DNA of 42,253 nucleotides from a virus. The stretch lies in IMG/VR virus record IMGVR_UViG_3300025085_000059, positions 1-42,253 of that record. One strand, given 5' to 3'. A model generated the notes under the pieces. It saw only the letters and a program-made list of their open reading frames with translations, was not told the origin of the DNA and did not search any database. Both the position numbers and the translations under genes were made by a program. This document shows positions 90 through 2,536 of this stretch, in pieces. Position 1 is the first letter of the stretch. Each line of letters begins with the position of its first letter.

Positions 90-112
90 GGGAGCGGCAC
101 AGATTCGCTCCC
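90..112 (+). terminator. Hairpin upstream of the 152-634 gene
   Basis: GGGAGCG (90-96) pairs perfectly with CGCTCCC (106-112) around a 9-nt loop. No T-run follows, so it is not a classical intrinsic terminator. It sits just after the upstream gene end and just before the next promoter-like box, the same layout as the hairpins at 1057, 1471 and 1825. Confidence 0.5.
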
Positions 113-113
113 T

Positions 114-128
114 CCTGTATCTTATAGA
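114..128 (+). promoter_or_regulatory. Promoter-like element of the 152-634 gene
   Basis: CCTGTA (114-119) followed by TATAGA (123-128), which ends exactly 23 nt before the ATG at 152. The same 23-nt spacing recurs at the next four genes. The -10 match is only 4/6 and no convincing -35 is visible. Confidence 0.4.
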
Positions 129-151
129 AGTCAACCAAACGACACAGAATC

Positions 152-634
152 ATGCTCACTGGAATCGCTCTCAAAAACACTGTCGCCGCAATGGAAGCGG
201 AAGGCAAGAAACCAACAGAGATCGCCATCGCTTGTGGTTATTGTACTGTCGAAGGTTCCAACACTAAGATTCACTTTACCGATTTTTACATGGCATTAAT
301 GGAGGTAAAAGAGGTTTTAGTTGATGACATCGAAGAGGAGACAATTAAGGCAGAAAATGATGACAATCAGGAAGCAATTAATAAGGCATTAGAAGATTAT
401 CCTGCTGATGGAATCCGTGCCTTTATTGAATATTTTGGAGAGGATTGTATCGCAGACATTTCTAACTCTTATCAGGATGAAATGTCAGGCGCTGAGTTTG
501 CTGAACAATTGGTTTCTGATTGTTACTCACTCGACATTCCTTCCTTTGTTTCTGTAGATTGGGAAGACACATGGGATAATCTACGCTACGACTACATTGA
601 GCAAGACGGATATATTTTCTGCACCAACTTCTGA
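152..634 (+). CDS. cyAbrB-N-like / ArdA-like two-part protein
   Basis: 160 residues. Residues 1-55 (LTG at the start, ACGYCTVEG, then FTDFYMALMEVKEV) resemble the N-terminal segment of cyanobacterial cyAbrB regulators (LTG...CGYYT...NLTDFYDA...AKG), from memory of that family. Residues 80-160 (IRAFIEYFGEDCIADI, FAEQLVSDC, DIPSFVSVDWEDTWDNL, DGYIF) resemble the acidic C-terminal half of ArdA antirestriction proteins, which act as DNA mimics against type I restriction enzymes. The middle and C-terminus are strongly acidic, as expected of a DNA mimic. The start is the ATG that matches the 23-nt leader rule of this cluster; there is no Shine-Dalgarno. An early anti-host role is inferred. Both domain calls need a profile search; the ArdA similarity is the weaker. 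Confidence 0.65.
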   Translation: MLTGIALKNTVAAMEAEGKKPTEIAIACGYCTVEGSNTKIHFTDFYMALMEVKEVLVDDIEEETIKAENDDNQEAINKALEDYPADGIRAFIEYFGEDCIADISNSYQDEMSGAEFAEQLVSDCYSLDIPSFVSVDWEDTWDNLRYDYIEQDGYIFCTNF

Positions 635-640
635 TAACAC

Positions 641-668
641 TTAAGGGGACTAATCATCCCCTTTAATT
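641..668 (+). terminator. Hairpin terminator after the 152-634 gene
   Basis: AAGGGG (643-648) pairs with CCCCTT (658-663) around a 9-nt loop and is followed by TTAATTAAT. It begins nine bases after the stop codon. The tail is T/A rather than a pure T-run, so a weak intrinsic terminator or 3' stabiliser. Confidence 0.55.
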
Positions 669-765
669 AATACTTACCCTCCCAACCGGAGGGTCTACCT
701 TCATCCTAGCACGGCGGCGTGAGGGTAAAAAAATATGGTGTGCCAGTTTAACAGGTGGCACATGA
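669..765 (+). other. Structured intergenic region
   Basis: No gene was found here, but dyads are dense. ACCCTCC (676-682) pairs with GGAGGGT (688-694). Alternatively TACCCTC (675-681) pairs with GAGGGTA (721-727), which excludes the first stem. CACG (710-713) pairs with CGTG (718-721). TGTGCCA (739-745) pairs with TGGCACA (756-762). The two exclusive stems could form an attenuator-like switch or part of a small RNA; function is inference only. Confidence 0.4.
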
Positions 766-796
766 AATAGGCACAACGCACCGGATGCCCTATTCT
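766..796 (+). promoter_or_regulatory. Hairpin plus promoter-like box of the 820-1047 gene
   Basis: AATAGGCA (766-773) pairs with TGCCCTATT (786-794) with one bulged C. The downstream arm contains TATTCT (791-796), which ends 23 nt before the ATG at 820. The match to TATAAT is only 4/6. Support comes from the identical spacing at four other genes. Confidence 0.4.
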
Positions 797-819
797 TATC
801 TCAGTTCAAACAACCGACC

Positions 820-1047
820 ATGCAACTTCAATCACTCGGCGCTAACAAAACTCAAGTCGATCTGGCAGACGGTACGTCGGTTTTCTTTTCATACAAGACA
901 CCTGTCGCCGCTCTGGTACCTGGCAAGGGATGGATCCGCTCTAGTACGAAATACAGTTCTACCACGTCTAAGCACGTTAACCAGTGGATCACAGGTACAG
1001 CAACCGAGGTTGATCAGTGGGACATTGACCAACTGGTAGCATTCTAA
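820..1047 (+). CDS. Small conserved cyanophage-type protein, function unknown
   Basis: 75 residues. Visible features are a short beta-rich core (VDLADGTSVFFSYKTPVAALV), a basic stretch with TSKHVNQW, and an acidic end. Short proteins with the same FFSYxTPVAA and TSKHxNQW pattern are, from memory, common in cyanophages, and no function is known to me. The ATG at 820 fits the cluster's 23-nt A/C-rich leader; an overlapping frame opening at 755 lacks that leader. Nine bases after the stop a hairpin begins (1057-1081). No Shine-Dalgarno is present. Confidence 0.75.
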   Translation: MQLQSLGANKTQVDLADGTSVFFSYKTPVAALVPGKGWIRSSTKYSSTTSKHVNQWITGTATEVDQWDIDQLVAF

Positions 1048-1056
1048 AACAATTAT

Positions 1057-1081
1057 GAAGGGATCGCCATTCGGTCCCTTC
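1057..1081 (+). terminator. 10-bp hairpin after the 820-1047 gene
   Basis: A 10-bp stem (one T-G pair) with a CCATT loop. The central 19 bases (1060-1078) are identical to 1826-1844. No T-run follows; the next -10-like box starts seven bases downstream. It could be a 3' terminator or stabiliser, or a protein-binding dyad at the next promoter. Confidence 0.6.
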
Positions 1082-1082
1082 A

Positions 1083-1121
1083 CCCTGTACAATTAATTCA
1101 GTTCAAACCCAGACCGATGAC
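1083..1121 (+). repeat. Direct repeat copy 1: promoter and leader
   Basis: 39 bases covering the -10-like box, the leader and the first codon and a half. They match 1501-1539 at 37 of 39 positions. Conservation stops where coding begins, so the leader rather than the protein is duplicated. Confidence 0.85.
1084..1093 (+). promoter_or_regulatory. Promoter-like CCTGTA/TACAAT of the 1117-1440 gene
   Basis: CCTGTACAAT with a -10-like hexamer TACAAT at 1088-1093, ending 23 nt before the ATG at 1117. The only -35 candidate is TCGCCA (1064-1069), inside the hairpin, 18 nt upstream. The box recurs at 1502 and 1849. Confidence 0.5.
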
Positions 1122-1440
1122 TCTCACAATCAAAACCAACTGGACGCCAAGAGAATTGATTATGGGGCAATGGTTAGAAGGATTCGGCGGACTTAATTCT
1201 GCGAGTCTATATCATCAACTCCGCAAAGAGTTTGACTACCTTAGTGAGGATGAATTTGACGAAAGAGAGTTCTTTAAGTATCGGGGAGTTTGGTACGATA
1301 TCGGTGAATTTATGAGAATTGACAATAACTCTCCCTTCGGTAATAAGTGGGACGGGTATTCTTCCGACTCTTATTTTAGTGGGGTTCTTGTCAAAAATTG
1401 TTTTGATGGCAATGTCATCGTAGGAACCTATCTTTCCTGA
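1117..1440 (+). CDS. Hypothetical acidic protein of the small-gene cluster
   Basis: 107 residues, no known family recognised with confidence. Segments that look conserved in style are FFKYRGVWYDIGEFMRI and KWDGYSSDSYFSGVLV, rich in Tyr, Trp and Phe, suggesting a compact beta-rich fold. No signal peptide or membrane segment. The start is fixed by the leader shared with the 1535 gene (37/39 identical). No Shine-Dalgarno; the leader is A/C-rich. Like its neighbours it may be an early small host-modifying protein, but that is inferred only from location and promoter layout. Confidence 0.7.
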   Translation: MTLTIKTNWTPRELIMGQWLEGFGGLNSASLYHQLRKEFDYLSEDEFDEREFFKYRGVWYDIGEFMRIDNNSPFGNKWDGYSSDSYFSGVLVKNCFDGNVIVGTYLS

Positions 1441-1470
1441 TATGTAATACTATTTCAAAGTGTAACAAGT

Positions 1471-1494
1471 CGGGTGACCTGCAACGGTTGCCCG
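1471..1494 (+). terminator. Hairpin after the 1117-1440 gene
   Basis: CGGGTGACC (1471-1479) pairs with GGTTGCCCG (1486-1494), including two G-T pairs, around a TGCAAC loop. It occupies the same slot as the hairpins at 1057 and 1825 but with a different sequence, so the structure is kept rather than the bases. Confidence 0.5.
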
Positions 1495-1500
1495 ATCCGA

Positions 1501-1539
1501 CCCTGTAAAATTAATTCAGTTGAAACCCAGACCGATGAC
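1501..1539 (+). repeat. Direct repeat copy 2: promoter and leader
   Basis: Second copy of the 39-base unit, differing from 1083-1121 at two positions (1508 and 1522). It ends just after the ATG. Confidence 0.85.
1502..1511 (+). promoter_or_regulatory. Promoter-like CCTGTA/TAAAAT of the 1535-1813 gene
   Basis: CCTGTAAAAT with hexamer TAAAAT at 1506-1511, ending 23 nt before the ATG at 1535. It lies inside the 39-base repeat shared with 1083-1121. No clear -35. Confidence 0.5.
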
Positions 1540-1813
1540 CGATTTTCACAACACCTCACTCGACGCCTACGAACGCGAACAGGATCGGTACGCGATCCTG
1601 GACCTTCCTGCGATCCGCGAATATATCCAGGAACACGCTGGGTGTTCCGTTGACGATGCCCTTGAGTGGTTCGAGCAGGTATCAGGACGCCCTGTAGCAG
1701 AGGATCAGTGGGGTGCCATTGAAGAGGTCTGGGAGGAAGAGTCAGCAGACTGGGATCCGTCCGATGACGATATAATGGCATCGTTCGGTACCAAGTGGCA
1801 CGACGGATTGTAA
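1535..1813 (+). CDS. Hypothetical acidic small protein
   Basis: 92 residues from ATG 1535; the frame is open from a TTG at 1520, but the repeated leader places the ATG at 1535. The product is very acidic (segments EWFEQVSGRPVAEDQWGAIE and EEVWEEESADWDPSDDD) and helix-rich, with no Cys pair and no membrane segment. The family is not recognised. Acidity would suit a DNA mimic or a protein-binding inhibitor, but this is speculation. The DNA is clearly GC-richer than the structural genes. It contains a perfect 8-bp inverted repeat with a 5-nt loop (1580-1600). A hairpin begins 11 bases after the stop. Confidence 0.7.
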   Translation: MTDFHNTSLDAYEREQDRYAILDLPAIREYIQEHAGCSVDDALEWFEQVSGRPVAEDQWGAIEEVWEEESADWDPSDDDIMASFGTKWHDGL

Positions 1814-1824
1814 ATTAAATCTAA

Positions 1825-1845
1825 GGGGATCGCCATTCGGTCCCC
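1825..1845 (+). terminator. 8-bp hairpin after the 1535-1813 gene
   Basis: GGGGATCG pairs with CGGTCCCC around CCATT (one T-G pair). Bases 1826-1844 are identical to 1060-1078. No T-run follows; the next promoter-like box starts four bases later. Confidence 0.6.
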
Positions 1846-1848
1846 GAT

Positions 1849-1858
1849 CCTGTAGAAT
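1849..1858 (+). promoter_or_regulatory. Promoter-like CCTGTA/TAGAAT of the 1882-2181 gene
   Basis: CCTGTAGAAT with hexamer TAGAAT at 1853-1858, ending 23 nt before the ATG at 1882. A weak -35 candidate TCGCCA (1830-1835) lies 17 nt upstream inside the hairpin. Confidence 0.5.
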
Positions 1859-1881
1859 ACACACAAGCAAACAAACCAACG

Positions 1882-2181
1882 ATGTTTACTTCAATCACAA
1901 GTCGTCAGTCCTTCGGAGCAACCTATCAGTGGGCGATCCTGTCAGTCCTTCCTATGGACGACGGCGACGATGGCATGGCACAGGACGGCATGCGCCCCAC
2001 TGACATCAACGCTGCGCTGGGTCTTCCTAATGAAGCACGGACAGGTCTTTCAATGCTACTCAAGGTGATGGCAGAGCAGGGACTGATCAAGCGTCACGAA
2101 CTGGGAGCACGTTGGGTAGAGTACACCCGCCTTATGCCCCTACGCAACAGGGAGCGCATCGCCCGTTGGTTATGGCAGTGA
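1882..2181 (+). CDS. Winged-helix-like small DNA-binding protein (putative)
   Basis: 99 residues. Residues from about 38 to 82 read as a helix-turn-helix with a wing: TDINAALGLPNEARTGL is followed by the helix SMLLKVMAEQGLIKR and a turn into ARWVEYTRL, the pattern of MarR/ArsR-like winged helices. The C-terminus is basic (LRNRERIARWLWQ). A DNA-binding or transcription-modifying role is inferred from this pattern, not from a database hit. The start is set by the cluster's 23-nt SD-less leader. The hairpin dyads upstream of the cluster genes are possible operators for it. The DNA is GC-rich compared with the virion genes. Confidence 0.6.
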   Translation: MFTSITSRQSFGATYQWAILSVLPMDDGDDGMAQDGMRPTDINAALGLPNEARTGLSMLLKVMAEQGLIKRHELGARWVEYTRLMPLRNRERIARWLWQ

Positions 2182-2227
2182 GTTAGGTGGCACACAGTGG
2201 GTGGGTGTCGGGCAGTGCCCCCGCCCC

Positions 2228-2255
2228 CCGCGTGCGCCGCGCCCGGCGCGTGTGG
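2228..2255 (+). other. Strong GC-rich hairpin at the cluster boundary
   Basis: A 12-bp stem (2228-2239 with 2244-2255; three G-T pairs) closes a CGCC tetraloop within an almost pure G/C stretch (about 2207-2256). GGGC-AGT-GCCC (2210-2220) lies just upstream. No T-run follows. It marks the end of the small-gene cluster and the return to AT-rich phage DNA. Confidence 0.6.
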
Positions 2256-2341
2256 CTAAAACGCTAAGGTACCATTAGGCTACAAAGTCTTGCTTTCGCG
2301 ACCTCTTTATAGAACTCTACACTTTTCTATATAAAACAAAA

Positions 2342-2536
2342 ATGGAAAACGAAATACCTCTTATGCAAAAAAATCCCGGCGAAAATTTTTCGACTGTAGA
2401 GGTCGATCCCGTAACAGGTGAATATGTCGTTCAAGTACCAGAGTGGATCATCTCTGAATTTGGGTGGTATGAAGGTACACAATTAAATTTGGAGGTTGAT
2501 AAAGATGCTATCGTGATTACCGAACTGAAAGATTGA
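2342..2536 (+). CDS. AbrB/MazE-like swapped-hairpin protein (putative)
   Basis: 64 residues. The segment VEVDPVTGEYVVQVPEWIIS, then EFGWYEGTQLNLEVDKDAIVITEL, fits the SpoVT/AbrB-MazE pattern (beta hairpin, V-P, short helix, G-W/L..G..L.L.V...I.I), a dimeric DNA-binding fold used by antitoxins and transition-state regulators. It fills almost the whole protein, so any DNA-binding arm must come from the short N-terminus. The protein is acidic, which is unusual for a DNA binder and could mean it pairs with another AbrB-type protein, perhaps host cyAbrB; that is inference. The ATG at 2342 follows an AT-rich leader without a Shine-Dalgarno. No toxin gene is adjacent. Confidence 0.6.
   Translation: MENEIPLMQKNPGENFSTVEVDPVTGEYVVQVPEWIISEFGWYEGTQLNLEVDKDAIVITELKD

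Follow-up and report, generated by a model that had tools for sequence, protein, structure and literature searches.

A predicted promoter-leader start-up module with a 17-letter leader precedes dozens of unrelated small genes in cyanobacterial viruses of oceans and lakes

The window, that is, the whole stretch of 42,253 nucleotides (nt) taken from IMG/VR virus record IMGVR_UViG_3300025085_000059, is a 42-kb fragment of a T4-like cyanophage. Five small genes on the plus strand are located 2–4 kb upstream of gp25/gp6-like baseplate genes, and each of them is headed by a unit consisting of a −10 box and a short leader, with a hairpin or a palindrome further upstream in some of the units. Gene 1 (152–634) encodes a protein of the anti-restriction family phrog_36653 (E 1e-18), to which S-PM2p068, likewise an array gene, also belongs; gene 2 (820–1047) matches phrog_5643, the function of which is not known; gene 3 (1117–1440) and gene 4 (1535–1813) are absent from the corresponding place in the closest relative, G006; and gene 5 (1882–2181) shows a weak MarR-like match (PF12802, E 0.024) that is below the cut-off. 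A role of such array genes in host takeover is plausible, the anti-restriction family of gene 1 being the sole functional hint.

In the original prediction, a −10-like box was said to end exactly 23 nt before each ATG (152, 820, 1117, 1535 and 1882), and the boxes named there are all present: TATAGA at 123–128, TATTCT at 791–796, TACAAT at 1088–1093, TAAAAT at 1506–1511 and TAGAAT at 1853–1858. The distance stands for units 2–5; in unit 1 the −10 is probably TATCTT at 118–123, 5 nt upstream of TATAGA, because this position fits the palindrome spacing and matching promoters of the same layout in Syn9 (48551 and 50993) and S-SRM01 (86631). Position weight matrix (PWM) scores are 43.9 for the unit 2 −10 and 15.7 for the box plus leader of unit 3. 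Direct reading confirmed that four of the five units (1, 3, 4 and 5) have CCTGTA at the box or close to it and that none of the five leaders contains a Shine-Dalgarno (SD) sequence. The hairpin proposed before every box was recovered in four units, with free energies of −13.8 to −17.4 kcal/mol and z from −2.2 to −4.3: unit 1 (89–113, terminator-like, minimum free energy −16.7 kcal/mol, z −3.5), unit 3 (1056–1082, z −4.3), unit 4 (1469–1496, z −3.7) and unit 5 (1825–1844, z −2.2). It was not supported in unit 2 (z −0.5). A palindrome, the predicted regulator site, is found in unit 1 (TGTGACGGTCTGACAAGTGGCACA, 65–88, dyad PWM score 22.5) and in unit 2 (TGTGCCAGTTTAACAGGTGGCACA, 739–762, dyad PWM score 16.8, with a correctly spaced −10). 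The predicted 5′ untranslated regions (UTRs) extend over 803–819 in unit 2 (AGTTCAAACAACCGACC, the class B leader), 1100–1116 in unit 3, 1518–1534 in unit 4, where the leader is nearly the same as in unit 3, and 1865–1881 in unit 5 (AAGCAAACAAACCAACG, the class A leader).

When window positions 640–2200 were compared by blastn with 50,697 phage records, named phages matched in short pieces only, several of which were leaders, and this first pointed to conservation of the leader rather than of the gene. For gene 2, the leader matched an intergenic stretch of S-PM2 as well as an S-SRM01 leader; that of gene 5 matched S-CAM3, S-CAM1 and Sf-CH1b; the class A leader was also seen in 7 IMG/VR contigs and the class B leader at about 60 IMG/VR places. 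In the IMG/VR scan, the class B leader occurred on 90 contigs, and an in-place ATG followed at 64 of the 91 places listed, a few of which were already among the sequences collected, most of the 64 having a TATACT/TACAAT-type box just upstream. The extended leader was without a match in GTDB genomes, by which a host origin was rejected.

The unit proved to be conserved among T4-like cyanophages. Scanned over 2.5 Mb of retrieved DNA, a PWM that combines C-tract, −10 and leader gave 640 matches, and none when the DNA was reversed or shuffled; 375 of the 640 head an ATG open reading frame (ORF), and 268 of the 375 are non-redundant. The consensus is CCTGACCCC-TAYAMT-N2-TCTCAGTTCAAACGACC-N2-9-ATG. 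A C-A at positions 11–12 from the box start is invariant in the 268 units and is the predicted initiator, at which transcription would start, giving 5′ UTRs of mostly 15–20 nt. The leaders are 75% A+C, with an SD-like 4-mer in 8%, and no −35 hexamer is conserved over the units. A TAYAMT −10 with an invariant C-A agrees with a sigma-70/SigA promoter, in which a purine initiator lies 6–7 nt downstream of a TATAAT-like −10. The spacing to the ATG is constrained among relatives and yet not fixed (26–38 nt from the box start, with a mode of 28, or 22 nt after the box), and the 23-nt rule is thus a local one. These features support a separate promoter and a short SD-less leader for each gene, as had been predicted.

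A related module, TAnnnT-N5-CA, peaks 27–31 nt before ATGs genome-wide and also heads larger genes, including those for a UvsW-like helicase and a cobS-like AAA ATPase, so that the short leader is a general trait of these promoters and the dense array is their special trait. The promoter module is not confined to the small genes of the original prediction. Two large module-headed genes had been taken for nrdA/nrdB from their first residues; this was rejected, as Pfam gives an AAA_5 ATPase (cobS-like) for one and no family for the other. Outside the gp25 array, a promoter-leader match lies upstream of psbA in S-CAM4 (180547–180577; L182 3001–3031), and matches occur at roughly the same place in ACG-2014e, ACG-2014i and ACG-2014j.

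The arrangement recalls the promoter early stem-loop (PeSL) cassettes of T4-like phages, reportedly the subject of Arbiol and colleagues in 2010 and of Comeau and colleagues in 2014, in which a stem-loop and a prereplicative promoter are repeated among small unrelated genes in hypervariable regions. Copies of the unit concentrate at a single locus: upstream of gp25, 14 were counted in 4.4 kb (G003), 7 in 2.8 kb (G001, a 205-kb genome) and 6 in 2.5 kb (S-PM2), and shuffled genomes would be expected to contain zero. Arrays of at least three units are found on 67 contigs with a median spacing of 271 nt, which corresponds to the dense repeats and hyperplastic small-ORF region of PeSLs. Altogether, 378 distinct units head 87 protein families, which include 34 singletons; the downstream genes are unrelated, and the proteins have a median length of 65 amino acids. 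The unit may also predict genes that annotation overlooks: at least two units (23220 and 23460) lie in an unannotated gap of S-PM2 (NC_006820, 22975–23767), each heading an ORF of 67–71 amino acids.

Recent duplication of cassettes within a genome could also make leaders alike without any function, and the near identity of window units 3 and 4 agrees with it. This explanation is hardly credible, since the similarity of leaders is 0.60 between genomes and families and 0.61 within a contig, so that no within-genome homogenisation is seen, and since the genes behind them are unrelated. The sequence data rather support the predicted selection on the promoter-leader unit, acting across unrelated genes.

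The second conserved element lies further upstream. Position-specific k-mers, TGTG(C/A)CA at position −54 and TGGCACA at position −37 relative to the start of the box, belong to a 24-bp palindrome whose consensus is the inverted repeat TGTGCCAGTT-N4-AACTGGCACA. It precedes further genes throughout cyanomyovirus genomes, beyond the arrays: genome-wide scans gave 193 sites in 11 genomes, 153 of the 193 with a −10 box 39–45 nt from the centre. Some of the 193 sites had trained the PWM, and the non-training sites (n = 153) are the cleaner test; among them a box lies 39–44 nt from the centre in 117, against about 13% at random, and nearly all are at 40–43 nt with a peak at 41–42. In an exact-pattern scan of IMG/VR, the box was present at 100 of 128 sites, compared with 13.7% by chance. 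The half-sites show neither covariation nor excess compensatory pairing; this rules out an RNA hairpin, and it indicates that the palindrome is conserved as DNA sequence, which argues for protein binding. The original prediction had noted poor −35 elements and suggested a special polymerase state or an activator: the −35 is indeed lacking, and the palindrome offers a candidate activator site.

At three mismatches or fewer, the palindrome is found in 15 of 16 T4-like cyanophage genomes at about 20 per Mb (reversed control 0), and it was not found in T4, Pelagibacter phage HTVC008M, P-SSP7, Syn5, Ma-LMM01 or S-TIM5. A dyad so conserved in sequence, regulon-like and phage-specific might equally be a repressor operator, through which an incoming or early phage protein would turn these promoters off rather than on. 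We consider this improbable, as the centre lies about 54 bp before the predicted start, outside the core promoter and in a typical activator position, and the promoters are without a −35. It is also conceivable, though rather unlikely, that the phage co-opts a host transcription factor as the binder. A host factor would be present from the moment of infection, and the use of host PhoB by cyanophages has been reported (PMC10976474). However, only 23 sites (about 0.05 per Mb) occur in 201 host-family genomes, where the reversed control also has matches, in 12 of the genomes. Those host sites that were examined are scattered, at least some of them within coding sequence, and the palindrome is missing from the podovirus and non-T4 myovirus controls, whose hosts are of the same kind. 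A host regulon for the palindrome is not supported by this near-absence, and an activator site bound by a protein of the phage lineage is preferred.

A weak candidate for the binder is the 64-amino-acid AbrB/MazE-fold protein of phrog_661, the gene of which (2342–2536, plus strand) adjoins the window array directly downstream. Among phage records this family occurs only in T4-like cyanophages, and most of those tested have it; it is missing from S-CRM01 (which has 14 palindrome sites), Bellamy and P-HM1. Binding of the palindrome by this protein is thus weakly supported, by a similar but imperfect distribution. As separate observations, L360/L403 (IMGVR_UViG_3300008113_001711) carries at least 8 exact palindromes, many of them 57–62 bp apart, resembling a tandem operator array, and exact palindromes of the TGTGAC type, alike in pattern, occur in similar contexts in several filamentous cyanobacteria (L287, L309, L313, L316, L327, L328 and other Nostocales), where they are possibly an unrelated operator or the end of a mobile element.

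With respect to the hairpin, perfect arms of at least 6 bp are present in 41% of the 268 units, compared with 5% after shuffling and 8% just upstream, and they end mostly 8–14 nt before the −10. A stem-loop with a promoter between genes, as in PeSLs, is accordingly seen in this 41% and in four of the five window units. The hairpins are commoner where the preceding gene stops early (p 1.6e-5). Outside the arrays, a hairpin lies between palindrome and −10 in 45 of 117 promoters, and U-rich DNA follows 22 of the 45, which is the textbook form of a terminator. On balance, the hairpin is interpreted as a probable transcription terminator of the preceding gene. Alternatively, a single long transcript might be processed, with the hairpin and the AU-containing stretch after it acting as an RNase cleavage site and the resemblance to a −10 being incidental; a hairpin followed by single-stranded sequence before many genes would suit this, as would the very short size of certain intergenic gaps. 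It is nevertheless very unlikely, because about 59% of units are without a strong hairpin yet retain the −10 and initiator, the −10 keeps a fixed distance from a DNA palindrome, and the box fits a sigma-70 −10 and not an RNase consensus. Separate promoters behind putative terminators are preferred.

Comparison with G006 showed how the units bound gene differences. Identity is 96% from window position 1846 on and 84% before 1110, and between these points one unrelated gene of 70 amino acids replaces window genes 3 and 4. The two breakpoints in homology fall within the unit 3 leader (about 1110) and shortly before the unit 5 −10 (about 1846). In all arrays, 50% of the ends of blocks with at least 94% identity fall in the 44-nt core, against 15% of random positions, and as BLAST blocks extend into any conserved unit, these ends show gene-bounded swaps and not the crossover point. 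In sequence, cyanophage relatives thus differ by swaps of whole cassettes bounded by units, which is again what PeSLs show: the element bounds gene swaps in both, through the G006 replacement and the enrichment of block ends here. The prediction of a plug-in cassette is consistent with such swaps, and recombination at the units may have caused them.

Several differences from known systems should be stated. Compared with PeSLs and their strong host-type −35/−10 early promoters, the cyanophage units are without a −35, their conservation covers the entire 5′ UTR up to the ATG, and the 24-bp palindrome is added upstream. T4 middle promoters are similar in having a −10, no −35 and an upstream activator site (a predicted one in the cyanophages), but they differ in that the T4 MotA box is about 9 bp long and lies at about −30, whereas the cyanophage palindrome is centred about 54 bp upstream of the start; no MotA-type box is conserved near −30 in the units. 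NtcA-activated cyanobacterial promoters also combine an upstream palindromic site with a TAN3T −10 and no −35; however, the NtcA site, GTAN8TAC, is another sequence than TGTGCCAGTT-N4-AACTGGCACA and lies nearer to the −10 than the cyanophage palindrome does. T4-type late promoters (NATAAATA) share the −10-like element, the short leader and the lack of a −35, but their sequence is different, and in the same genomes they are found separately with the leader CTAAAAAAC. It has been reported that motA and asiA are absent from cyanomyoviruses (PMC2984593), and in the same paper Clokie et al. (2010) called it unclear how T4-like cyanophages, being without alt, mod, motA and asiA, regulate early and middle transcription. 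Cyanophage early promoters were predicted with a generic sigma-70 program only (Sullivan et al. 2010, PMC3037559), and Puxty et al. (2015, PMC4503421) found the PeSL density at the S-PM2 ORFanage, another locus, too low to account for gene gain. A literature search, whose scope did not include the PeSL and Syn9 transcriptome papers, did not find the leader or the palindrome printed in a phage context.

Taken together, the units are probably the cyanophage counterparts of the T4 PeSL promoter-terminator cassettes, served by the host sigma-A polymerase and a candidate palindrome-binding activator. A GC hairpin would end the transcript of the preceding gene, and a −35-less sigma-A promoter with a C-rich tract, a TAYAMT −10 and a C/A initiator would launch a new one, which a leader of about 17 nt, A/C-rich and SD-less, would lead to the ATG and whose translation it may drive. 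A dimer, probably encoded by the phage lineage, would bind TGTGCCAGTT-N4-AACTGGCACA centred about 54 bp upstream of the start and substitute for the missing −35 contact at many such promoters. Every small gene upstream of gp25 lies between copies of this unit, and homologous recombination at the units could therefore exchange entire genes that keep a functional promoter and start codon.

Some results weigh against this account, among them the limit on the block ends given above. Most array hairpins are without a U-tract (at least 4 T in 8 for 10%), and termination is not assured. A recognisable palindrome is present in 161 of the 268 array units (about 60%) and missing from the rest, window units 3–5 included. 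The leader could also be kept as part of the promoter and not for translation.

A palindrome at fixed spacing before −35-less promoters in 15 of 16 genomes offers a testable answer on early and middle control and a handle on its regulator. The unit also provides a mechanism for the exchange of tiny accessory genes, some of them anti-restriction-like, in a form ready for expression, and it would serve as a compact expression module for cyanobacteria. A wider and tentative proposal, which we consider slightly more apt to fail than to hold, is that a lineage-specific activator with its palindromic regulon provides prereplicative transcription in place of MotA/AsiA/Alt/Mod, the promoter-leader unit being the joint of an integron-like cassette array of tiny host-interaction genes.

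After gene 5, window positions 2197–2340 are highly GC-rich with inverted repeats (GCGTGCGCCGCGCCCGGCGCG), and many loci regain homology between relatives here. In addition, late-type promoters (TATAAATA) share a leader of their own (CTAAAAAACnATA-ATG) in S-SRM01 and other genomes, e.g., W01 6243, and late genes may use this second conserved leader.

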